This document shows positions 4,468 to 40,580 of a stretch of 40,580 nt of DNA, piece after piece. Each line of letters starts with the position of its first letter. The stretch's first letter is position 1. Source of the DNA: Acidobacteriota bacterium (GTDB taxonomy: Bacteria; Acidobacteriota; Blastocatellia; Pyrinomonadales; Pyrinomonadaceae); assembly GCA_021323895.1 (NCBI GenBank), contig JAJPKD010000238.1, positions 1 through 40,580 on the forward strand, given 5' to 3'. Made by a program: the position numbers and the translations under genes. The notes beneath the pieces were generated by a model. The model was not told where the DNA came from and did no database searches. It worked only from the letters and a program-made list of their open reading frames with translations.

Positions 4468-5997
4468 TTGAATAAAACGACGAGTCAAGCACATCCGAAG
4501 CGACTGAAGGTTTGCCACATGGTCGGAACGACTGAAGGCGGAACCTGGATGTTCGAACAACTGCGCGAGCTGCGCGATCAGCACGGCTGCGAAGTGCACG
4601 CGATCGTCTCGGGCGATCAAGGGCGGTTGGTTGACAAGCTTCGTTCCGAAAATATTCCGTTTCATGTCGCGAATTTTCAAGCTGGCTTCGCCAGACCGGC
4701 AGCGCTGGTACAACTTCCGTTGGCAATTTTGCGGCTTGCGAAGCTTCTGCGCCGCGAGCGTTTCGATGTGGTCCAGACGCATATTTTCGCAACGACCATG
4801 GTCGGCCGACCGGCGGCGTGGCTGGCCGATGTGCCGGTCCGGCTGGCAATGATCGCCGGTCCATTCCAGCTTGAGGCGCCTACAACTCGTTGGATCGAAC
4901 AGGCGACGTGGCGAATGGAAACCGCGCTGATTCCATCCTGCATCGCGTCTCTTGAGTTGTGTCGCGAGATTGGAATTCCGGATCGGCGCCTGCATTTGAT
5001 TTACTACACTCCCGATCCGCGCAAGTTCGATCCCACGCGCACTCTTCCGGCGAATCTCCGCGAGAAATTTGGCTGGCCAGCCACGACCATAGTCGTCGGC
5101 ATGGTCGCCTATTTCTATCCAAAGCTATCGAAGAGTCGTTGGGTGCCTGAGTACGCGCATTATCGCGGCGTGAAAGGCCATGAAGATTTCATCAGGGCCG
5201 CGGCGATAGTTGTCAAACAGTTTCCGGACGCGAAGTTTGTGCTGATTGGTTCCGGCTGGGGCGCGGTCGGTGAAGAATATGAACAAACCTTGAGGCAATT
5301 GGTGAAAGATCTGGGGCTTGAGGAAAGCGTGATCTTCGCCGGCTTTCATGAGGACGTGAACGCAGTCTTGCGCGATCTGGATGTCGCCGTGCAGGCATCG
5401 ATCAGTGAAAACCTCGGAGGCACTGCCGAAGCGCTGTTGATGGAATGCCCGTTGGTCGTGACGCGCGTTGGCGGCATGACCGACACGGTCAGGGACGGAG
5501 TCACCGGCCTAACTGCAAACCGCATGGATCCGGAAGATTTGGCGCGCGCGTTGATTGAGATGCTCGCCAATCCGGAACGCGCGCGCGCTTTGGCAAGCGC
5601 GGGAAGAAAACTGATGCTCGAGCGATTCACGCTCGACCGCACCGCGGCGGAGCTGGCCGAGCTTTATCAATCATTAAAGACGCGCAATTCGCGCAGCGTC
5701 ATTTTTTATCCCTTAGTCTTCATCGGAAAGTCGATCGCGGCCGCGCCGTTGTTTGCATATGTCGCGTTTCGTCTTTTCGTAATGGATCTCCTGGTGCCGG
5801 TCTATGTGCCAATCTATTGGGGAGTCTTTCTGATAATCGCCAAGAATTTATTGCTTCGGATTAAGTACCTGCCAATTCGCATCGCGAGTCGCATCTTGAG
5901 ATTAGGGTATCGGGTCTTGCGAGTCCCGTATCGGTTTCTTAAGGGTTCGCGCGCGCATTCAAAAGCAGTGTTATCAAAAGTCGAGGACGCGGAGTAA
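4468..5997 (+). CDS. GT4-family glycosyltransferase with hydrophobic basic C-terminal tail
   Basis: A GT-B sugar transferase of about 509 residues. The N-terminal lobe begins RLKVCHMVGTTEGGTWMFEQL. The C-terminal lobe shows GHEDFIRAAAIVV, FVLIGSGWGAVGEEYE and the donor-binding stretch NLGGTAEALLMECPLVVTR, then GGMTDTVRDGVTGL. After about residue 405 the protein adds roughly 100 residues that are not GT core: hydrophobic stretches (FYPLVFIGKSIAAAPLFAYV; VPVYVPIYWGVFLIIAKNLL) and arginine-rich amphipathic repeats such as IRIASRILRLGYRVLR, presumably for membrane attachment. The TTG start at 4468 keeps the first beta strand; no strong ribosome site is visible. First gene of the six-gene rightward glycan/export run. 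Confidence 0.88.
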   Translation: MNKTTSQAHPKRLKVCHMVGTTEGGTWMFEQLRELRDQHGCEVHAIVSGDQGRLVDKLRSENIPFHVANFQAGFARPAALVQLPLAILRLAKLLRRERFDVVQTHIFATTMVGRPAAWLADVPVRLAMIAGPFQLEAPTTRWIEQATWRMETALIPSCIASLELCREIGIPDRRLHLIYYTPDPRKFDPTRTLPANLREKFGWPATTIVVGMVAYFYPKLSKSRWVPEYAHYRGVKGHEDFIRAAAIVVKQFPDAKFVLIGSGWGAVGEEYEQTLRQLVKDLGLEESVIFAGFHEDVNAVLRDLDVAVQASISENLGGTAEALLMECPLVVTRVGGMTDTVRDGVTGLTANRMDPEDLARALIEMLANPERARALASAGRKLMLERFTLDRTAAELAELYQSLKTRNSRSVIFYPLVFIGKSIAAAPLFAYVAFRLFVMDLLVPVYVPIYWGVFLIIAKNLLLRIKYLPIRIASRILRLGYRVLRVPYRFLKGSRAHSKAVLSKVEDAE

Positions 5998-6032
5998 GAC
6001 TGAGCATTACCCCCGCTCAACACACAGACGCC

Positions 6033-6887
6033 GTGGCGATCGGTGAAGGCCTGCCGGTGAAAAGTGATCGCGCGCCCCTGTTGACCCTTAACGCGGATCG
6101 TTCACCGATTTTTCTCGGCTTGATCGAGACATGGAGGCAACGCGAACTCTTTTATTTCCTGGTGTGGCGGGATCTGAAGGTTCGTTATCGGCAGACGGCG
6201 CTCGGCGTTGCGTGGGTCGTGCTCCAGCCGTTGTTGATGGCGCTCGTTTTCACAGTCTTTTTCAGCCGCCTCGGCCACTTTGACTCAGGCGGAATTCCCT
6301 ATCCGGTTTTTGCGTACGCGGGTTTGCTGCCGTGGACTTTCTTCGCGAATTCGGTTTCGACGGGAAGTTCCAGCCTGCTGGCGAACAGCTACATCCTCAC
6401 GAAAGTTTATTTCCCGCGGTTACTGATTCCGCTGTCGGTCGTAGCAGTTCGCTTCGTCGATCTGCTCGTGGCTTCGCTCGTGCTGTTTGTGTTGATGCCC
6501 TTCTACGGAATGGGTTTGGGCCGAAACATTCTGCTGTTGCCGGCGATGATTTTGATCACCGGATTATTCGCGCTAGCTGTGAGTGCCTGGCTTTCGATTG
6601 TAAGTGTGAGGTTGAGAGACGTCGGAACATTGCTTCCGGTGTTAATTCAGCTTTGGATGTTTTTATCGCCAATCATCTATCCCGCGACGTTTGTCCCAGC
6701 CAGGTGGCGCGCGCTCTACTCGCTCAATCCGCTGGTTGGCATCATCGAGGGGTTTCGAGCGGCCTTTCTCGGTGTTCCTTTTGTATGGAACTCAATCATC
6801 GTCGCGGCCGTCTTAACCGCCGGACTTTTGATTTACGTGGTGTACGTTTTCTTCCGCTGGGAAGATCGCATTATCGACAAGCTTTAG
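6033..6887 (+). CDS. ABC-2 type polysaccharide export permease (Wzm-like)
   Basis: Inner-membrane permease of an ABC exporter for a lipid-linked surface polysaccharide or polyol phosphate. The motif YFLVWRDLKVRYRQTALGVA near residue 42 is typical of the Wzm/TagG family. About six membrane spans follow, ending with the usual QLWMFLSPIIYP and LNPLVGIIEGFR motifs. Length 284 is slightly long for the family because of an N-terminal leader. The GTG at 6033 is the annotated start but has no clear ribosome site; a GGAG at about 5991-5994, just inside the upstream gene, might serve a non-ATG start near 6000-6006. The ATPase gene follows after five bases, so the pair forms one transporter. Confidence 0.93.
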   Translation: MAIGEGLPVKSDRAPLLTLNADRSPIFLGLIETWRQRELFYFLVWRDLKVRYRQTALGVAWVVLQPLLMALVFTVFFSRLGHFDSGGIPYPVFAYAGLLPWTFFANSVSTGSSSLLANSYILTKVYFPRLLIPLSVVAVRFVDLLVASLVLFVLMPFYGMGLGRNILLLPAMILITGLFALAVSAWLSIVSVRLRDVGTLLPVLIQLWMFLSPIIYPATFVPARWRALYSLNPLVGIIEGFRAAFLGVPFVWNSIIVAAVLTAGLLIYVVYVFFRWEDRIIDKL

Positions 6888-31454: not shown

Positions 31455-34382
31455 ATGACCCAGGAAGCTATCGAAGTACGGGGCGCTCGCGTCAACAACC
31501 TCAAGAACATCTCGTTTTCGATTCCCATCAATCAACTGACCGTCGTGACCGGCGTAAGCGGGTCGGGCAAGTCTTCTCTTGCTTTCGACACGATTTACGC
31601 AGAAGGCCAGCGGCGATACGTCGAATCGTTGTCGGCCTATGCTCGGCAATTCCTCGAGCGCATGGACAAGCCGGATGTTGATGAAGTACGCGGCATTGCT
31701 CCGGCGATCGCAATTCGACAGAAGAATTCAACACGCAATCCGCGTTCGACGGTGGCCACGCAAACGGAAATCTTCGATTACCTGCGTCTGCTGTACGCGC
31801 GGATTGGCACGACGATTTGTCGTGTCTGCGGCCGTGAGGTCCATCGCGATTCGCCGGAATCGGCAGCGGACGAGATTCTGAGTCAGTTGTCTGAAGGTAC
31901 GCGCTTCTATGTCGTGTTTCCGGCGAGCGCGGGCTTGACTGTCGAGACTAATGGGAACGCCGACGTGAAGACCAGGAGAAACGGAGACGGGGAGAAAGCG
32001 AGAAACGGCAACTCTCCCCGTCGCCGCGTCTCCGCGTCTGCCCGTCACGTAATCACCGCACACCTCATGAGCCTGATGCAGCGTGGCTTCACGCGCCTCC
32101 TGTTCAATGGCGAGCAGATCGATCTGACATCACCCGATGACTATAGGCGCGAAGACTTTGAAAATGTTTATGTGCTCGTTGATCGTCTGGTCGCGCGCGC
32201 GGATGTGCGGCAGCGACTGGTTGACTCGCTGGAAACGTGTTTTCGCGAGGGTCATGGCCAAGCAGAGATTGAAGTCGTAGGTACGCACTCGTCCGGCGTG
32301 CAAACGGAGCAGGCCAGCGGCCTGCGTAACCATCTGCGTTTCTCGGAACGCTTCGAATGCAAGTACGACGGCACCGTGTACGCCACGCCTGAGCCGCGCC
32401 TCTTCAGCTTCAATAACCCATTCGGCGCGTGTCCGACTTGTCAGGGATTCGGCAACACGATTGGACTCGATCTCGATCTGGTGATTCCCAATCCGGGATT
32501 GAGCCTAAGCGAGGGCGCGATCGAGCCTTTCACCAAGCCGCAGTATGAATGGGCGCAGGCAGAGCTGAAACGATTCGCGAAGTCGGAGCGCATTCCGATG
32601 AACGTGCCGTTCAATCAACTAACAAAGCCGCAACAGCGGGCGATCGTTAACGGCAAGGGCGATTGGAGTGGCGTGCGCGGTTTCTTCGATTTTCTCGAGA
32701 CAAAAAAATACAAGCTGCACGTGCGCGTGTTTCTGTCGAAGTATCGCGGCTACACGCTCTGCCCCGATTGCGAGGGCGGGCGCCTGCGCCAGGAAGCGCG
32801 AGACGTGCGCGTCGGCGGAAAGACTTTGCCGGAAGTTTCCGCGCTATCGATCAAAGATGCCGCCGTCTTTTTTGATGCGCTGGAATTGCTGCCGGAGCAA
32901 TCAGCGATTGCGGATCGCGTGCTGTTCGAAGTGCGTCGTCGCTTGAGATTCATGGTCGAGGTTGGTTTGGACTATCTGACGCTCGACCGTCTGGCTTCTA
33001 CTCTGTCTGGCGGCGAAGCACAACGAATTAAGTTGGCCACGAATCTTGGTTCATCGCTCGTCGGCGCGCTTTACGTGCTTGACGAGCCCTCGATCGGCCT
33101 GCATCCGCGCGACAACGATCGTTTGATTCGTTTGCTCCAGAACTTGCGCGACATCGGCAATACGGTGCTGGTAGTCGAGCACGACGAAGACATGATTCGC
33201 TCGGCGGATCATATTCTCGACATCGGGCCCGCGGCGGGTGAACTCGGCGGACGCTTAATTTACGAAGGGGATTTTCGCGGTCTGCTTCACGATTCTCTAT
33301 CGCTGACGGGGAAATATCTTCGCGGTGAAGTTGAGATTAAGGAGCCGAAGCATCGGCGGGCGCTGCAACTGAAACGTTTGAAAATTCGCGGCGCCAGCGA
33401 GCACAACCTCAAGAGCATCGATGTCGATATCCCACTGGACATGCTCGTGTGTGTGACCGGCGTGAGTGGTTCCGGCAAGTCCACACTGATTCACGACTGT
33501 ATCTACGCGGGTTTGAAAAAAGAGAAGGGCGAGTGGCAAGGACACGTCGGCGCATTTCAGAAGATCGATGGGACGCAACACATCGACGAAGTGATTCTTG
33601 TCGATCAGTCGCCAATCGGCCGCACGCCGCGATCAAATCCCGTCACTTACATCAAAGTTTATGACGCGATTCGCGAGACCTTCGCCAACACGCGCGAAGC
33701 TCAGGCGCACGGCTTCGACCCTTCGCATTTTTCGTTCAATGTTCTCGGTGGTCGTTGCGAGGTCTGTCAGGGCGACGGCACCGTTACGGTCGAGATGCAG
33801 TTCCTCGCGGACGTCGAACTGATCTGCGAAGAATGCAAAGGCACGCGCTTCAAGCAGCAGATTCTCGACGTTCGTTATCGCGGTAAGAACATTCATGACG
33901 TGCTGAACATGACCGTGCGCGAAGCGATGACCTTCTTTCGCGACATAAATAAGATCGCCAATCGCTTGCGCGTGCTGGATGAAGTTGGACTCGGATATCT
34001 GCGCTTGGGCCAATCGGCGACGACTTTGTCCGGGGGAGAAGCCCAGCGCGTGAAACTGGCCGCGCACTTATCGAAACGGGCCGGCGCCAAGACGCTCTAC
34101 ATCTTCGACGAACCTACGACCGGCCTTCACTTTGACGACATCAACAAACTGCTGGCCGCGTTTCGCGCGCTGATTGACGCAGGCGGATCGCTGCTAGTGA
34201 TCGAGCACAACCTCGATGTGATTAAGACTGCCGATTACATTGTTGATTTAGGACCCGAAGGCGGAGATGCGGGTGGATATGTTGTAGCTACCGGAACGCC
34301 GGAAGAGATCATGAAAGTAAAATCATCTCACACGGGCAAATATCTGAAAGAACACCTTACCCACCTTAATGGCCGCGGGTGA
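31455..34382 (+). CDS. uvrA: Excinuclease ABC subunit A
   Basis: DNA-damage-recognition ATPase of nucleotide excision repair. Both ABC modules are present: Walker A VVTGVSGSGKSSLAFDT and CVTGVSGSGKSTLIHD; signatures TLSGGEAQRIKLATNLG and TLSGGEAQRVKLAAHLS; Walker B YVLDEPSIGLHPRD and YIFDEPTTGLHFDD. Zinc-module cysteines appear in CPTCQGFG, CPDCEGG, CEVCQGDG and CEECKGT. It has 975 residues, about 30 more than usual. The extra length falls at about residues 170-198, a basic low-complexity stretch encoded by an inverted repeat of octamers (31962-32046). The position is just after the EGTRFYVVFPAS strand, where other UvrA proteins have a short variable loop, so function is probably kept. Confidence 0.98.
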   Translation: MTQEAIEVRGARVNNLKNISFSIPINQLTVVTGVSGSGKSSLAFDTIYAEGQRRYVESLSAYARQFLERMDKPDVDEVRGIAPAIAIRQKNSTRNPRSTVATQTEIFDYLRLLYARIGTTICRVCGREVHRDSPESAADEILSQLSEGTRFYVVFPASAGLTVETNGNADVKTRRNGDGEKARNGNSPRRRVSASARHVITAHLMSLMQRGFTRLLFNGEQIDLTSPDDYRREDFENVYVLVDRLVARADVRQRLVDSLETCFREGHGQAEIEVVGTHSSGVQTEQASGLRNHLRFSERFECKYDGTVYATPEPRLFSFNNPFGACPTCQGFGNTIGLDLDLVIPNPGLSLSEGAIEPFTKPQYEWAQAELKRFAKSERIPMNVPFNQLTKPQQRAIVNGKGDWSGVRGFFDFLETKKYKLHVRVFLSKYRGYTLCPDCEGGRLRQEARDVRVGGKTLPEVSALSIKDAAVFFDALELLPEQSAIADRVLFEVRRRLRFMVEVGLDYLTLDRLASTLSGGEAQRIKLATNLGSSLVGALYVLDEPSIGLHPRDNDRLIRLLQNLRDIGNTVLVVEHDEDMIRSADHILDIGPAAGELGGRLIYEGDFRGLLHDSLSLTGKYLRGEVEIKEPKHRRALQLKRLKIRGASEHNLKSIDVDIPLDMLVCVTGVSGSGKSTLIHDCIYAGLKKEKGEWQGHVGAFQKIDGTQHIDEVILVDQSPIGRTPRSNPVTYIKVYDAIRETFANTREAQAHGFDPSHFSFNVLGGRCEVCQGDGTVTVEMQFLADVELICEECKGTRFKQQILDVRYRGKNIHDVLNMTVREAMTFFRDINKIANRLRVLDEVGLGYLRLGQSATTLSGGEAQRVKLAAHLSKRAGAKTLYIFDEPTTGLHFDDINKLLAAFRALIDAGGSLLVIEHNLDVIKTADYIVDLGPEGGDAGGYVVATGTPEEIMKVKSSHTGKYLKEHLTHLNGRG
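31962..32046. repeat. Inverted repeat of octamers inside uvrA
   Basis: Arms 31962-31995 and 32013-32046 match at 27 of 34 positions. The right arm is four octamers close to GACGCGGA (complement); the left arm is a decayed version. A 17-base spacer lies between. It is read through in frame and codes for a Lys/Arg/Asn/Ser-rich insert. Confidence 0.85.
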
Positions 34383-34438
34383 GATTTCGATCTGCGAGTC
34401 TGGGTCAATCAGAAACCTTCACAACTTGTTTCCGAAGT

Positions 34439-35059
34439 TCAGCTCGTCCACTCGCCGTGCGCGATGCCGACCAGATACCACTGGCTTCCGTCCTTTTCAA
34501 ACACGAACCACAAGCTGCGCCAATCCATCCCGCCATATTTCTCTTCGAAACCGGGGAAGTGATATTCGACGAAGATCGCGTTCGGGTAAACCTCGGCCAT
34601 GTTATTGATCAGCGTGCCGCGCCCGTAGAACTGATCGCCGTAATTGACTTGGGCGCGAGCAAAGTCCTTGTCGTAAACAAAGCGACGATAGTAACGCGTG
34701 AAAGTCATGCGTAACTTCTCGCCGGTTACGTCGTCTTCACCCCAGACGAATCGACGGTTGTTAGCGAAAAGAGTTCGCGCCTGCGCGCGCGTCACCACGC
34801 GATCGCCACCCTTCTCAATGTTGATGTGGTAATAAGGCGAGAATCGCAGACCCTTCGTCGGATGAACCAGTGGTGCGAGCCGCGCCAGGTTCTTTGTCTT
34901 GAGCGCGAGGATGGCAGTGCGCGCACGCAGCGCAATGATCTTTTCAGTTTCAGCGGCGGACAATTTTTGCGCTGATATCGTCGAGGCTGACGCCGCGACA
35001 CACGCGATCGCGAGTATTGATCCGCGCAAAGCAACCAAGCGTGCGTTTGTGGTTTTCAT
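34439..35059 (-). CDS. Exported protein of unknown function (206 aa)
   Basis: Not recognised. An N-terminal signal is visible (LRGSILAIACVAASASTISAQ). The mature part starts with a helix (SAAETEKIIALRARTAILAL), then HPTKGLRFSPYYHI and a mixed beta region ending MDWRSLWFVFEKDGSQWYLVGIAHGEW. The end resembles the last strands of cone-shaped (NTF2-like) proteins, where a calculated phrase such as FEKDGSQWYLVGI is common, but this is only a style match. It is followed on the same strand by a 15-base gap from the kinase gene and converges with uvrA. Confidence 0.75.
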   Translation of the reverse strand: MKTTNARLVALRGSILAIACVAASASTISAQKLSAAETEKIIALRARTAILALKTKNLARLAPLVHPTKGLRFSPYYHINIEKGGDRVVTRAQARTLFANNRRFVWGEDDVTGEKLRMTFTRYYRRFVYDKDFARAQVNYGDQFYGRGTLINNMAEVYPNAIFVEYHFPGFEEKYGGMDWRSLWFVFEKDGSQWYLVGIAHGEWTS

Positions 35060-35074
35060 TCTGGCTTAGAGCTT

Positions 35075-36937
35075 TTACCGCACGTCTTTTGCGCAACGAA
35101 AGCCCGTCTTGCTGTAATCGTAATTGCCGCGTGCGGGATAGCCACGACGGTACGTCGTGGTGGCAGTATTTCGATCGCTGTCATAAGCGCCTCCGCGAAT
35201 GACACGCAGGTCGCTGGTTGGTTTAATCGGCAGTTGCCCGCCGGGATACGTGTTTAGTGGGCTGGAGGTCCACTCCCATACGTTTCCTGCCATGTCATAA
35301 GCGCCATAGGGTGATTTACCCACGAATGCGCGCACGTTTGCTACGCCGCGGACGCCATTGGCATTAGCCAGACCAGTTTTCCATTCATTTCCCCATGGGT
35401 ACCGCCGTTCATCAGTGCCGCGCGCCGCAAACTCCCATTCCTCTTCTGTCGGCAGACGTTTGCTCGCCCACTTGGCAAAAGCATTCGCATCGTCCCACGT
35501 AATGCCAGTGGCGGGCGCTAGATCTTCGACGCAATGTCCCAGCGTCCAACTCGTTGGCGCAGCGCGACCGGTGGCCCTCAGGAACTGCGTATAACTCCCG
35601 CAAGTAACTTCAGTCTCGTCGATGAAGAATGAGCCAATCGAAACTTTGTGCGCAGGTCGTTCATAGTCGTCTCCATCGTCGCGGCCCATCATGAATTCTC
35701 CGCCGGGAACATAGACCATTCCTGACGGGGCCGGCGGCGCCACTGGCTGTGGCTTTTCAGTTATCGATGCGGGATTCGACGTTGTCGTGTTGGTCTGGTT
35801 TCCAGTCTCCCTAGTCGCAAGCAAATAGAATCCTACGCCGGCAATAACAACGATCACGGCGATGATTGCGAATACAACTATCGCGCGATTGGATTTTGGT
35901 GGCGGCGATGAATCGTACGGGGCAATTGTTTCAGCCGCCGGGACCGGATTGGTGGCACTTGGCTCGGGAACCGCTTGCGGAACAAATGGCGCGTGCATCG
36001 TCGGGATGTGCATCGGTTGTGGCGGCTCTTCCGGTGTGGGTTTCTCGTCAGAAGCTTCAGTAGGTTTTGGCTGCGGCACGGGCGGAGAAGGAAGCGGTGC
36101 GGTCTCGGCTTCTCTCGCTTGCTCTAATCCCGTTCGCAAAGCGTTTCTCATTTCGCTTGCCGAGGCAAACCGATCCCGCTTGCGGATGGACATCGACTTG
36201 GAAACTATCTTAGAAAGCCACTCAGGCACTTGAGGGTTAAGGGTGTGCGCGAAGGACAGCGGATCGCGTCCCGTTTCTTCCAAAGCTTCAGCTCGCTGCG
36301 AAGCGGTAATCGGAACTTGACTTGTCAGCAAGTGATAGAGCGTCGCGCCGAGCGAATACACGTCACTCTGTGGAGTCGTGCCAGAATTATTCAACTGCTC
36401 GAGGGGTGCATAAGGCGCGGTGTACGCGTGAACGCTCGAGGCCTCCTGACCGGGCGCGCCGCGGGCCAAACCGAAATCGAGCAGATAAATCTCGCCCTCG
36501 CTCGTTACTTTGATGTTCGCGGGTTTGATGTCGCGATGAACGATCGGCTCGGGTTTTTGATCGTGCAAATAAGTCAGAGCGCCGAGTAACTGATCGGCCC
36601 ACGACATTACTTCGGCATAATCGAATGGCCGCCCGCGCAGCTCAAGTCTCTGCGCGAGGTTCAAACCTTCGATGAATTCCATGACCAGGAATTGGCCGTC
36701 GCCGTGAGAGAAATGGTGAGTTACTCGCGGCAGCGTGGGATGTTTCAGATTGGCGAGTGTTCTGGCCTCGTGGCGGAAAGCGCTGCGTAGCTTGTCAGAA
36801 GTCGTCAGCGTTTCTTTAATGGCGACAATCGAATCGATCGTGTCATCGATGGCTTCATAAACCTGCCCCATGCCACCCTTACCGAGCGGTCTGACGATGC
36901 GATAACGGTTTTCGAGAATCGTGTTGCGCGACAGCAT
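35075..36937 (-). CDS. Membrane Ser/Thr protein kinase fused to an FGE/sulfatase-modifying-like domain
   Basis: 620 residues. A PknB-type kinase (about 10-270) has LGKGGMGQVYEAI, Lys41 in IVAIKE, HRDIKPAN (His134, Asp136) and DFG at 154-156, so it looks active. A Pro/Glu-rich linker (280-350) and one membrane span (AIVVFAIIAVIVVIAGVGFYLL, 352-373 in two parts) follow. A periplasmic formylglycine-enzyme-like domain comes next (406-620; MVYVPGGEFMMG, LPTEEEWEFAARG, DMAGNVWEWTSS, VIRGGAYDSD, KTGFRCAKD). The paired cysteines that true FGE has shortly before the final GFR are missing, so this is probably a binding domain or sensor. ATG 36937 is preferred; 20 more codons upstream are open but unlike the family. 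Confidence 0.92.
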   Translation of the reverse strand: MLSRNTILENRYRIVRPLGKGGMGQVYEAIDDTIDSIVAIKETLTTSDKLRSAFRHEARTLANLKHPTLPRVTHHFSHGDGQFLVMEFIEGLNLAQRLELRGRPFDYAEVMSWADQLLGALTYLHDQKPEPIVHRDIKPANIKVTSEGEIYLLDFGLARGAPGQEASSVHAYTAPYAPLEQLNNSGTTPQSDVYSLGATLYHLLTSQVPITASQRAEALEETGRDPLSFAHTLNPQVPEWLSKIVSKSMSIRKRDRFASASEMRNALRTGLEQAREAETAPLPSPPVPQPKPTEASDEKPTPEEPPQPMHIPTMHAPFVPQAVPEPSATNPVPAAETIAPYDSSPPPKSNRAIVVFAIIAVIVVIAGVGFYLLATRETGNQTNTTTSNPASITEKPQPVAPPAPSGMVYVPGGEFMMGRDDGDDYERPAHKVSIGSFFIDETEVTCGSYTQFLRATGRAAPTSWTLGHCVEDLAPATGITWDDANAFAKWASKRLPTEEEWEFAARGTDERRYPWGNEWKTGLANANGVRGVANVRAFVGKSPYGAYDMAGNVWEWTSSPLNTYPGGQLPIKPTSDLRVIRGGAYDSDRNTATTTYRRGYPARGNYDYSKTGFRCAKDVR

Positions 36938-37036
36938 CAAGGAAACTTTGCGCCCGCGGAAAACCTGGCCGGCCGAAACGACGCTTTGCGCGCGCATCTT
37001 AGCGAAGTTTGGCGCAACCCGCTAGATGTTTCGGTA

Positions 37037-37384
37037 TTAGACTGGCGGGAAAAGGTCCGCGGGGGCTTTCCCGCTGTCGCGACCTATGACGCCAAAAAAG
37101 AAACTTCCGCCATAGATGTACCAGGGCAAACTGTTGAGGATCGGAACCGCGTTCTCAGGCGTTAGCGGCAATGGCAGATCGTCGGGCAGGATGCCGACGA
37201 TCCATCGACCTGATTTGCTGAACGCTTCGTACTCAGCGCGATAGTGAAGCCAACGGCGCTGGCAAAGGCCGCAGGTCCTAACGTCAACGTCGCCAAAACG
37301 GCCGTTGGTAGGATCGACGCCGAGATACTCTTCATGGAACCGGTCGGGACCGTGACTCAGACATTCGCAGTCCTTGTCGATCAT
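37037..37384 (-). CDS. Small protein with two Cys pairs, unknown function
   Basis: 115 residues from the ATG at 37382-37384, five bases after the HD-protein stop, so the two are probably co-translated. It contains KDCECLSHG near the start and RTCGLCQRRWLHYRAEYEAF about 35 residues later, a CxC...CxxC arrangement that could hold zinc. The C-terminal half has no membrane span of normal length (WYIYGGSFFFGVIG is short). I do not recognise the family. An ATG 18 bases upstream is less likely because it lies inside the preceding gene. Confidence 0.7.
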   Translation of the reverse strand: MIDKDCECLSHGPDRFHEEYLGVDPTNGRFGDVDVRTCGLCQRRWLHYRAEYEAFSKSGRWIVGILPDDLPLPLTPENAVPILNSLPWYIYGGSFFFGVIGRDSGKAPADLFPPV

Positions 37385-37388
37385 CGAA

Positions 37389-37964
37389 TTACTCCTCGGC
37401 ACTTTCTTCCGCCAGAACGCGGTGGCCTTCGTTCAAAATCTGGTCGTAGAATTTCTCGAGCGCGGGATTAGCGCAGCGACATCCCGCGACCACCTGCTCA
37501 GTCCAGTCGAGATATTCCTGCCGCCGCTGCAAAGACCAATCGGCCGGTGGCGCAACGGTCACGCCGACCACGTTGGAAATCTTGTCCGCGATTTTCACCT
37601 GACGGGCGTGATCAGACAGATGCGGAGCGTGCTCGATTTGTAAACGCTTACGATCGGCTTTCGCCAGCGATTTGTCGTCGGTCACTTCTTCTACGACTCG
37701 GCGCACATCGGCACCGAACGCTCGCTCCAACTCTTCCGGCGTCGTGTCCGTGTCTTCGATGGTGTCGTGCAGAATTCCAGCTTGCAGTGTCACCGGATCA
37801 GTCACACCGCCTTCACGGGCCAGCAACTCTGCGACTTCGATCGGATGATTGATGTAAGGCGAGGCTTCGACATCTTTGCGGCGCTGATCGCGATGTTTGT
37901 TCGCAGCGAAGTGCAGAGCTTTCAGGATGGCCGCGGCAGTGTTTGGTTCGTTCATTTTTTTCAC
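37389..37964 (-). CDS. HD-domain hydrolase, MESH1/SpoT-hydrolase-like
   Basis: Probably a small alarmone ((p)ppGpp) hydrolase. The 191-residue protein has the metal-binding motifs of the RelA/SpoT HD domain: [22 protein letters not shown] (first His and the substrate-side residues, split over two turns), [12 protein letters not shown] (HD plus ED), and [10 protein letters not shown] (late Asp). No synthetase, TGS or ACT domain is present, so it is a stand-alone hydrolase like MESH1. An ATG nine bases downstream is an alternative start. It is followed by the small Cys protein. Confidence 0.88.
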
Positions 37965-37979
37965 GCAACCCAGCTATCT

Positions 37980-39110
37980 CTACCGATCGCGCGCGACCGC
38001 AACTACTCGGAAACCGATATTCTCACCGTGATACGATGCGCTGCCATACATGCGATTGGTTGAGCGAACCTGATCCGCGCCGTCGTACCAGGAGCCGCCG
38101 CGAATAGTACGCATGTGCTCGATGCCGCCAGTTAACCAGACGCTACCGTCCGTGGGCGCGCCGTTGTAATTCTCGTGGTACCAATCAAGACACCATTCCC
38201 AGACGTTGCCTCGCATGTCATAAAGACCAAAGGCATTCGGCCTCAAACGTCCAACCGGATGCGTCTTTCCGTCTGAGTTCTTCCTATACCATGCCAGCAA
38301 ATCCAGCTTCGCTATTTCATCGTCACTGGTTCCCGCACGGCACGCATATTCCCATTCCGCCTCTGTGGGCAATCGATACCGGTACGCGTCATTGGCGTCA
38401 TTGAGCTTGTCCAAAAACTGCTGAGCGTCCTCCCATGAAACCAGCTCCACCGGACAATTTGCGCAATCCCTATGCTGGCTGGGCGTGGTCCCCATCACTT
38501 GGCGCCATTGAGCTTGCGTGACTTCGTACTTTCCCATGTAGAAACCGTATTCGCCGGTTGTGGTTCGCAATGAATCCAATTTGATCTTGGCCAGGTTGTA
38601 TCGAGTTTGAGCTCCGTCAAACTCTGCCCGTGACGCAACTCCCTGTTCCAATAGGGCCATTTCGCGTTTCAGATCGACTCGAGCATTCGCAAGTTGGGTT
38701 TCAGCGTTAGGAGTCTCCATTCTCGCTCTGGCTGCGTCTTGTTCGTTGACCACAAACGCAACCTGATGGACCGGTTTCTCACCGCCATTCTCAGATCCCA
38801 TCATGAAACTACCGGGCGGAACCCAGACGAACTCCATGCCTATTCGATTGGTGATGGTCTCGTGCTGAGGGTCGGTCGCAGGGGTATTTCCCCTTCCGGT
38901 TCGCCTTCGGTTGGCTGGGGTTGACGTGCGTTTTGGCGTGGCCGTTTTCTTCGGCGTTGGTTTTGCGACGACTTCGCCGCCCTTGCCTTGCGGCGCCGCA
39001 CTAAAGACGCTGCCGAGGGAAATGGAAAGCGAAAGCAGCGCGAGGACGGCGAACCCGAATGCTCCAATCAAAAGAGTTCGGCTTCGTCCATTTGCAAATC
39101 GTATACGCAT
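37980..39110 (-). CDS. Membrane-anchored FGE-like domain interrupted by an adaptor-protein coiled-coil hairpin
   Basis: 376 residues from ATG 39108-39110. N-terminal membrane span (TLLIGAFGFAVLALLSLSIS), QGKGGE, then a Lys/Pro/Thr linker (48-80). The FGE-like domain starts at about 88 (NRIGMEFVWVPPGSFMMGSE) and breaks at PVHQVAF. About 65 residues follow that are typical of RND/HlyD adaptor hairpins (ETQLANARVDLKREMALLEQ and SRAEFDGAQTRYNLAKIKLD, roughly 137-180). Then the domain resumes exactly where expected at YGFYMGKYEVTQAQW and runs to ENIGFRVVAVARDR. There are no FGE active-site cysteines before the final GFR. It starts 11 bases after the adaptor gene and is surely co-transcribed with it. 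Confidence 0.88.
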   Translation of the reverse strand: MRIRFANGRSRTLLIGAFGFAVLALLSLSISLGSVFSAAPQGKGGEVVAKPTPKKTATPKRTSTPANRRRTGRGNTPATDPQHETITNRIGMEFVWVPPGSFMMGSENGGEKPVHQVAFVVNEQDAARARMETPNAETQLANARVDLKREMALLEQGVASRAEFDGAQTRYNLAKIKLDSLRTTTGEYGFYMGKYEVTQAQWRQVMGTTPSQHRDCANCPVELVSWEDAQQFLDKLNDANDAYRYRLPTEAEWEYACRAGTSDDEIAKLDLLAWYRKNSDGKTHPVGRLRPNAFGLYDMRGNVWEWCLDWYHENYNGAPTDGSVWLTGGIEHMRTIRGGSWYDGADQVRSTNRMYGSASYHGENIGFRVVAVARDR

Positions 39111-39121
39111 TACTTGTGTGG

Positions 39122-40318
39122 CTAGTTTCCCACGATCACTGCCTGACCTGATCGCAAATCCTTCGGATCGACGATCACGGTTTGACCCGGCTTCACGCCC
39201 GAACGTATTTCGATCCAATCAGGGCCGGCAACGCCGGTAGTAACCGTCCGCTCGATCGCTTTGCCATTCTCCACGATCAGCACTTTCGCGTTTCGCGCTG
39301 ATCTTACTACTGCATCTTTTGGCACGCTGACCACCGTCGTAGGCTCCATGTCGATCTCGACGCGCGGCTTGTCGCCTGCTTGAAAGGCTTTGGTCTTTGG
39401 CAAGTAGAGATCGATCGAAATTATGCGTTTCGAATTGCCCGGTGCGGTAGTGACTCTATCAACACGGGCGACGTAGCTGGCCTGCTCATCGCTGACGCGC
39501 GCTGCCTGTCCAACCCGAATCGAAAGATTCTTAACTTGAACGTCGCGCGCCACGAAGGTCGAAGTGTCAACTCGCACATGAAGTTCGCCCATCGCGGCGA
39601 TCTCCATCAGCCGAGAATCAACGGTGACCGTTTGGCCCTCGCTCGCGCTGATGCCGCGGACGACTCCATCGGCCGGCGAGGTAACCAAACAGTCAGCGAG
39701 TCGCGCGACGGCGGCATCATGTTCAGCTTGCCTTTGTCTGACGAGATACGCGGCTTCTGGGCGTTTGCTGCTCCCAGCCGGCAAGGCATCGAGATCCCTG
39801 CGAGCTTGCTCAAGCGCGCTCTCTGTCAGTTGCTCGTTGGCGCGATACACGCTGTTGTCGATTTCCGCCAGGGCATCGCCACGCTTAACGGTAGCGCCTT
39901 CCTTCACGGAAATCTTATTGAGCCTTCCCGAGACTTGGGGGCTGACGGTGACCATCTCAGGAATCATCACCACGCCGACCGCTGAAAGTGTCTCGGCAAA
40001 AGTTTGCTCGGTCACCTTCGCAATTCTGACTGGAACCGGGCCCGAAATGCGCGTTGGTTTTGACGAAACATGTGTTGGCTTGCCGGGCGTCGGCGAAGCG
40101 GACGGTTTTGGTTTGATCTCGCCACCGGGTCCCTGGCCGGCATTCGCAAGCACGTTCAGCGTCGAGACCCCCAAAACCAATATGAACAACGCGACTAGGA
40201 TCGCCGGCGACCTGCGCGCACGTTGGTCGATCGCTTCATAGACGGTGCCCATGCCTCCGTGCCCGAGTTCGCGCAGGACGCGATAGCGATCTTGCAGGAT
40301 GGTATTGGGGGATAGCAT
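39122..40318 (-). CDS. RND/HlyD-type membrane-fusion protein with a Ser/Thr-kinase N-terminal fragment
   Basis: 398 residues. Residues 1-31 match the start of a PknB-type kinase (NTILQDRYRVLRELGHGG, then MGTVYEAID) and stop before the catalytic Lys. A membrane span follows (SPAILVALFILVLGVSTL), then QGPGGE and a Pro/Ser/Thr linker, then a periplasmic adaptor. The adaptor has the lipoyl half-motif VSPQVSGRLNKISVKEGATV, a short hairpin (160-208), the second half SPADGVVRGISASEGQTV, a beta-barrel and the C-terminal membrane-proximal domain (VPKDAVVRSARNAKVLIVEN). Adaptors of this class normally pair with an RND or MacB pump; none is encoded next to it. The FGE-like chimera follows. Confidence 0.9.
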   Translation of the reverse strand: MLSPNTILQDRYRVLRELGHGGMGTVYEAIDQRARRSPAILVALFILVLGVSTLNVLANAGQGPGGEIKPKPSASPTPGKPTHVSSKPTRISGPVPVRIAKVTEQTFAETLSAVGVVMIPEMVTVSPQVSGRLNKISVKEGATVKRGDALAEIDNSVYRANEQLTESALEQARRDLDALPAGSSKRPEAAYLVRQRQAEHDAAVARLADCLVTSPADGVVRGISASEGQTVTVDSRLMEIAAMGELHVRVDTSTFVARDVQVKNLSIRVGQAARVSDEQASYVARVDRVTTAPGNSKRIISIDLYLPKTKAFQAGDKPRVEIDMEPTTVVSVPKDAVVRSARNAKVLIVENGKAIERTVTTGVAGPDWIEIRSGVKPGQTVIVDPKDLRSGQAVIVGN

Positions 40319-40336
40319 GGTCGGGATGTGGCGGCG

Positions 40337-40580
40337 TCAATCGCCATCGAGCAAATAGATCGTCTTCAGATAGGGACATCCAGCGCGGATGCTGTACGTG
40401 ATCCTCTTCAAATAGAGATTGTTGTGCAGAATGCCGCCGTCGAAATCGAAAGTGCAAACGCCCTTCGCACATTTTTTAAAAGGTTTGACTGAGCGCGCGG
40501 GCAGCTCTTCATGTTCGCGACGCGTGAGCCACGCATCGGCCTGCGCGAGCGAAGCGAAGCGGCGCACGACAAACCGATCA
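40337..40580 (-). CDS. Unknown protein, 5' end cut by window
   Basis: The frame is open from the right window edge (reading DRFVVRRFASLAQADAWLTR) to a stop at 40337, at least 81 codons. An internal GTG at 40567 could be mistaken for a start, but the open frame and the phrase VVRRFASLAQADAW suggest the gene begins outside. It contains two short Cys-bearing stretches, KKCAKGVCTFDFDG and RAGCPYLKTIYLL. Not recognised. It lies 18 bases upstream of the kinase-fragment/adaptor gene on the same strand, so it may belong to that transcript. Confidence 0.6.
   Translation of the reverse strand, partial: DRFVVRRFASLAQADAWLTRREHEELPARSVKPFKKCAKGVCTFDFDGGILHNNLYLKRITYSIRAGCPYLKTIYLLDGD

Follow-up and report, generated by a model that had tools for sequence, protein, structure and literature searches.

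The analysis of the window, the whole stretch of 40,580 nucleotides that forms contig C47 of an assembled genome (322 contigs, 4.4 Mb; MAG 95.4% complete with 3% contamination), reveals a gene, here called A, that opens with the first 33 codons of a Ser/Thr kinase and continues in frame as a membrane-anchored RND-type adaptor. We give a probability of about 0.82 to the reading that a deletion created A as a fusion gene at its present position. The ancestral locus would have held an upstream gene, then a kinase-FGE gene (corresponding to kinase 1 of the same-genus genome G118), then, further downstream, an adaptor gene with a membrane anchor. Loss of the stretch between kinase codon 33/34 and a point just ahead of the adaptor membrane span would have taken away the kinase body and joined the adaptor in frame to what remained, the kinase start codon with 33 codons. 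The stub would now supply the site where translation begins and a short tail on the cytoplasmic side, before the membrane span. The parts of A and the gene ahead of it lie as follows.

39122-40318, minus strand: gene A, an open frame of 398 aa, ATG at 40318 and stop at 39122
40220..40318, minus strand: kinase stub, A residues 1-33, 29/33 aa and 81/99 nt identical to G118 kinase 1
40139..40204, minus strand: membrane span, A residues 39-60, hydropathy peak 2.61 at residues 39-57
40043..40138, minus strand: linker, A residues 61-92, GQGPGGEIKPKPS..., resembling the N-terminal linker of the next gene, B
39125..40042, minus strand: RND-type membrane-fusion/adaptor domain, A residues 93-398, TIGR01730 140.3 bits
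39743..39760, minus strand: site of an absent hairpin tip, A residues 187-192, from an alignment with 8 family adaptors and a gap at nodes 159-224 of a family HMM
40337..40580, minus strand: last 80 codons of the upstream gene, cut by the contig end, with orthologs ahead of a kinase in G118 and G113

The first-pass annotation had described a kinase-start fragment fused in frame to an adaptor, and both halves were confirmed within the single frame of A: the NCBIfam PknB model matches residues 6-40 (E 3.4e-6), and TIGR01730 (RND_mfp) scores well over its cut-off of 94.9 bits, with Pfam HlyD_D23 and Biotin_lipoyl_2 also above their cut-offs. The stub spans beta1, the Gly-rich loop (GHGGMGTVYEA at residues 19-29) and beta2 of a Ser/Thr kinase, and stops short of the VAxK lysine. 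No catalytic Lys, HRD or DFG occurs in the frame, hence, as had been proposed, the stub is, judged by its motifs, unable to act as a kinase. The conserved start of the Kinase-TM-FGE proteins of Pyrinomonadaceae (window gene C, G118 kinase 1, G113:C9 and the G026 protein) corresponds to the first 33 residues of A; unlike these proteins, A keeps neither the catalytic motifs nor any FGE domain. Of 83 loci brought in through kinase-start matches, 12 gave no row by the search pattern; among the others, both the Lys and the HRD are missing only in A (overlapping loci L100 and L122), with L068 set aside as its ORF runs past the end of the fetched stretch.

The likeness of the stub to a kinase start exceeds what chance would be expected to give, since a same-genus genome has an orthologous kinase whose start agrees with these 33 residues. 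Over 99 nt, G118 kinase 1 is the nearest of the kinases compared, followed by the kinases of G026 (28/33), G113:C9 (27/33) and G118 kinase 2 (27/33). A kinase within the window had also been singled out earlier for its likeness to the stub.

35075..36937, minus strand: gene C, an intact kinase-TM-FGE paralog, Pfam Pkinase and FGE-sulfatase

That likeness holds (blastp 66.7% identity over 36 aa, E 2.6e-10 within the window ORFs; 68.5% DNA identity over 92 bp against the start of gene C). As the parent of the stub, however, gene C is ruled out, at 23/33 aa and 64/99 nt against 29/33 aa for G118 kinase 1. Of the in-frame deletion first proposed, the loss of the kinase body therefore stands and the implied parent at 36937 does not; the comparison instead supports an ortholog of G118 kinase 1 as the probable parent. 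The point of joining can be placed at codon 33/34, as identity to the G118 DNA, counted in 10-base blocks, is 7-9/10 over the first 100 nt and 1-6/10 thereafter. A search of the window's own genome found no full copy of the parent kinase; over the kinase domain, the G113 kinase body was matched best there by C271 (56%), C (52%) and C92 (45%), each of which carries its own start.

The genomic position of A is further informed by the gene ahead of it, which is 69% identical to a G113 gene and 56% identical to a G118 gene, each directly preceding a kinase of the stub's type. The family is unnamed by Pfam, the G118 copy having no Pfam match. Between the stop of the upstream gene and the ATG that follows lie 18 nt in the window, as counted on the translation, 18 nt in G113 and 20 nt in G118. 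The slot that A holds in the window is occupied in G118 by the intact kinase 1 (Pfam Pkinase and FGE-sulfatase), and in G113 by a kinase kept to residues about 2-149 (blastx E 8.6e-58) that then breaks (L156 about 5586-6100, G113:C8; last part HRDIKPANLKVT). Beyond the G113 break there is a short possible FGE-domain end in another frame, a weak match of 18 aa (E 0.15). In G116 and G117 the stretch from uvrA to yqeY contained no recognised kinase; the uvrA matches gave only a second uvrA copy in G115 and none in G114. The intact G118 kinase, the same upstream gene, the sharp end at codon 33 and the independent truncation in G113 together make the in-frame loss of the kinase body well supported by comparison of these sequences, and a deletion at this position accounts for all the observations on the slot. 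A different origin, in which a kinase start was copied by recombination onto an adaptor gene from elsewhere, could draw on the other kinases with similar starts in this genome and on adjacent genes in the genus that share N-terminal spans and linkers and differ in their C-terminal domains; given that the best match to the stub is the same-slot kinase of a relative and none of the own-genome kinases, and that the upstream gene and its spacing are conserved, we regard such a capture as very improbable.

A full kinase in relatives had been named beforehand as grounds for rejecting the fusion as an assembly deletion. Such a kinase does exist in G118, but it is not refuting by itself, as the remainder of the locus varies from species to species and the G113 kinase is truncated in another way. 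An assembly artefact, in which the kinase body was dropped or two loci or strains were joined at codon 33, would suit a MAG this fragmented and a gene that starts 262 bp from a contig end and is known from one MAG contig, and the full G118 kinase in this slot would fit it as well. Against it stand a join that is in frame with an ORF intact over 398 codons, the absence of a junction repeat among those listed for 34400-40580, the natural upstream gene and 18-nt spacing, the different truncation of the same slot in G113, and the absence of a headless kinase body of this type among the own-genome matches listed. On balance we hold an artefact to be unlikely, and we read the kinase body as lost from the assembled genome through deletion.

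The stub differs from G118 kinase 1 at 18 nt, of which 14 are third codon positions and 4 are first or second ones, a pattern similar to that between the intact kinases of G118 (kinase 1) and G026 (2 differences at positions 1 and 2, 17 at position 3). This apparent kinase-like codon constraint fits a recent deletion and continued use alike. It bears on the suggestion that selection has retained the stub, whatever its origin, as a working contact module in the cytoplasm, for which the 4 of 18 differences at positions 1 and 2 would speak, together with the statement in PMC8277102 that adaptors anchored by an N-terminal membrane helix need cytoplasmic parts for recognition and assembly. A recent deletion gives the same codon-position pattern, though, and a P-loop half lacking the rest of the N-lobe would not be expected to fold; the stub is also present in one genome only, and a single-sequence model of A (mean pLDDT 40.0) is not confident in this region, making a selected contact module an improbable account. 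If A arose by deletion, the most likely role of the stub, which we infer from its position, would be that of a translation start, anchor and short cytoplasmic tail. The N-terminus of A is probably cytoplasmic, as the basic residues QRARR stand ahead of the membrane span.

The linker that follows the span is rich in Pro, Thr and Lys, and residues 43-82 of A are 40% identical to B (E 0.03; E 0.003 in the window all-vs-all). The adaptor domain shares with the RND/ABC periplasmic adaptors (TIGR01730, HlyD_D23) the lipoyl/barrel-sandwich and beta-barrel parts, and departs from them in its added kinase stub, in lacking the RLS hairpin tip and in having neighbours other than pump genes. The alpha-hairpin is incomplete: A covers TIGR01730 positions 1-80 and 117/119-320, without positions about 81-116, and on an HMM of 22 family adaptors it covers nodes 64-158 and 225-425. 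The motif RxxxLxxxxxxS, which PMC3391258 describes as the TolC-binding tip motif of MacA, AcrA and MexA, has no match in A; among the adaptors at hand it occurs in 26/29 of the MacA type and 6/22 of the RND type, some RND-type matches falling outside the hairpin tip. Judging from the mutants in PMC3391258, a tip-less A would not be expected to dock normally with a TolC-type channel. No pump gene stands beside A, whose 3' neighbour is the FGE protein B and whose 5' neighbour, visible for 80 codons up to the contig end, belongs to the unnamed family.

A search of relatives for the same fusion, or for the adaptor gene in its state before the deletion, came back empty, with no match covering both stub and adaptor in 119 family genomes. 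No relative of the adaptor part closer than 41% was found in 396 phylum genomes, with 5 candidates scored per genome. Because of these two results the gene order before the deletion, with the adaptor gene directly downstream of kinase 1, is proposed rather than read from a relative. The expression and topology of A are inferred as well. The adaptor part may be a recent transfer from outside, and it has no close relative that would reveal its original tip.

The gene that follows A carries a second graft.

37980..39110, minus strand: gene B, with a membrane span, linker and FGE-sulfatase-fold domain, Pfam FGE-sulfatase 146 bits
38553..38756, minus strand: in-frame insert in B, residues 119-186, about 68 residues, an adaptor alpha-hairpin fragment
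38631..38666, minus strand: RLS motif (RxxxLxxxxxxS) in the B insert, REMALLEQGVAS, an exact match

B begins 11 bp past the A stop. Its FGE domain scores 146.3 bits against a Pfam cut-off of 23.3 (residues 224-406 of a longer reading), and its FGE core is 61-63% identical to the best relatives. B shares its span, linker and FGE domain with the membrane-anchored FGE-sulfatase-fold (TM-FGE) proteins; what sets it apart from them is an RLS-bearing adaptor hairpin lodged within the FGE domain. The insert sits between VHQV and GFYMGKYEVT, which adjoin each other in relatives, and is absent from 14/14 other FGE rows aligned. In a profile scan of 111 FGE-bearing ORFs, B alone has its FGE domain split in two in this way, and RxxxLxxxxxxS occurs in 3/111 FGE stretches, those of B and of two planctomycete-record loci (L053, L055). 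The insert matches TIGR01730 positions 67-123 (E 9e-7), is 46% identical to an adaptor of G116 and falls on nodes 169-211 of the family-adaptor HMM. As the coverage of A and of the insert is complementary on both the profile and the HMM, the insert fills the part absent from A, with a slight overlap at both ends on TIGR01730. An AlphaFold model of B from a 4-sequence alignment (mean pLDDT 47.6) renders the insert as two helices with good confidence, and helical hairpins are the only confident parts in the structure models of A and B. Just downstream of the insert there is also a direct repeat of 17/18 nt (38392-38409 and 38499-38516, 107 nt apart, in different frames).

The hairpin graft in B, which lay beyond the first-pass annotation of A, is a more surprising part of the locus than the stub fusion. 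It allows a bolder picture of a split adaptor, in which the TolC-docking tip would have moved from A to B, so that B presents the hairpin and A keeps the pump-side barrel, and in which the island between uvrA and yqeY would be a site of repeated in-frame grafting of envelope-protein coiled coils into FGE loops (the hairpin in B; a Wzz/GNVR segment in the G026 kinase). We consider this picture improbable. By profile score the insert is closer to MacA-type adaptors (36 bits with their model) than to the RND type to which A belongs by likeness (21 bits with an RND-type model). A direct cut-and-paste from A to B may be possible, but is not supported as a simple move, given the better MacA-type match of the insert and the lack of a close relative of A.

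Gene fusion by deletion between adjacent genes joins the 5' end of the upstream gene in frame to the downstream gene. Compared with this general case, A keeps only 33 codons of the upstream enzyme, its island also holds a second graft, and its relatives hold other truncations and inserts. We found no such fusion in these bacteria in the literature, as covered by open-licence papers. The locus thus offers a rare view, in a soil bacterium, of genes remade in place from scraps; relatives show the same-slot kinase both intact and differently broken, which would make the birth of a fusion from gene decay traceable step by step. The complementary hairpin in B further suggests that the docking tip can be moved by nature as a module between unrelated proteins, an exchange made by hand in the chimeras between adaptors described in PMC3391258. 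If more such grafts exist, local in-frame reuse of scraps would be part of the domain diversity in kinase/FGE-rich genomes.

The island that surrounds these genes has a conserved border on either side, yqeY being the second.

31455..34382, plus strand: uvrA, NCBIfam UvrA

The order uvrA-yqeY-rimP-nusA is kept across the family. Annotation of 27 loci (the window, 6 fetched earlier for FGE matches and 20 from better uvrA matches) found yqeY in 23, the window, L297, L298 and L302 missing it where the contig or stretch ends first. Kinase/FGE genes lie between uvrA and yqeY in the window and the 6 pre-chosen loci and in 0/20 of the others, a frequency biased by that choice; the kinases of L299, L300, L303 and L309 sit beyond yqeY. 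The island contents differ at every locus with kinase/FGE genes. The G026 kinase-FGE protein also lies between the two borders (L040 644-2944 = L162 2537-4849, G026:C498), and about 50 residues are inserted in frame into one of its FGE loops, a different one from that of B. The insert shows 56% identity to the product of an 824-aa open frame of its own genome and 62% identity over 42 aa to L199, a Wzz/GNVR protein by Pfam. The locus is likely a gene island in decay, where recombination gives rise to in-frame mosaics.

A general survey found insertions of at least 25 residues relative to a homolog in 158/4084 ORFs. A donor-like match was obtained for 4/158, namely B, the G026 kinase (two overlapping loci, one gene) and L151, in a set biased by donor loci that had been fetched with those same inserts. 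Stricter reruns gave one and four insertions, mostly linker-like, with filters that missed B and G026, and a profile scan for FGE insertions returned B, along with another loop in other FGEs, and missed the G026 insert. At L151 (625-2112), an ORF with an FGE domain contains about 115 inserted residues, which match other proteins. Elsewhere, adjacent genes at L164 4886-10514 and L248 7710-8261 have in common a membrane span and a GQGGTG(R/K)-Pro-rich linker and differ in their C-terminal domains, which are FGE, TPR and STAS, the last two named by eye.
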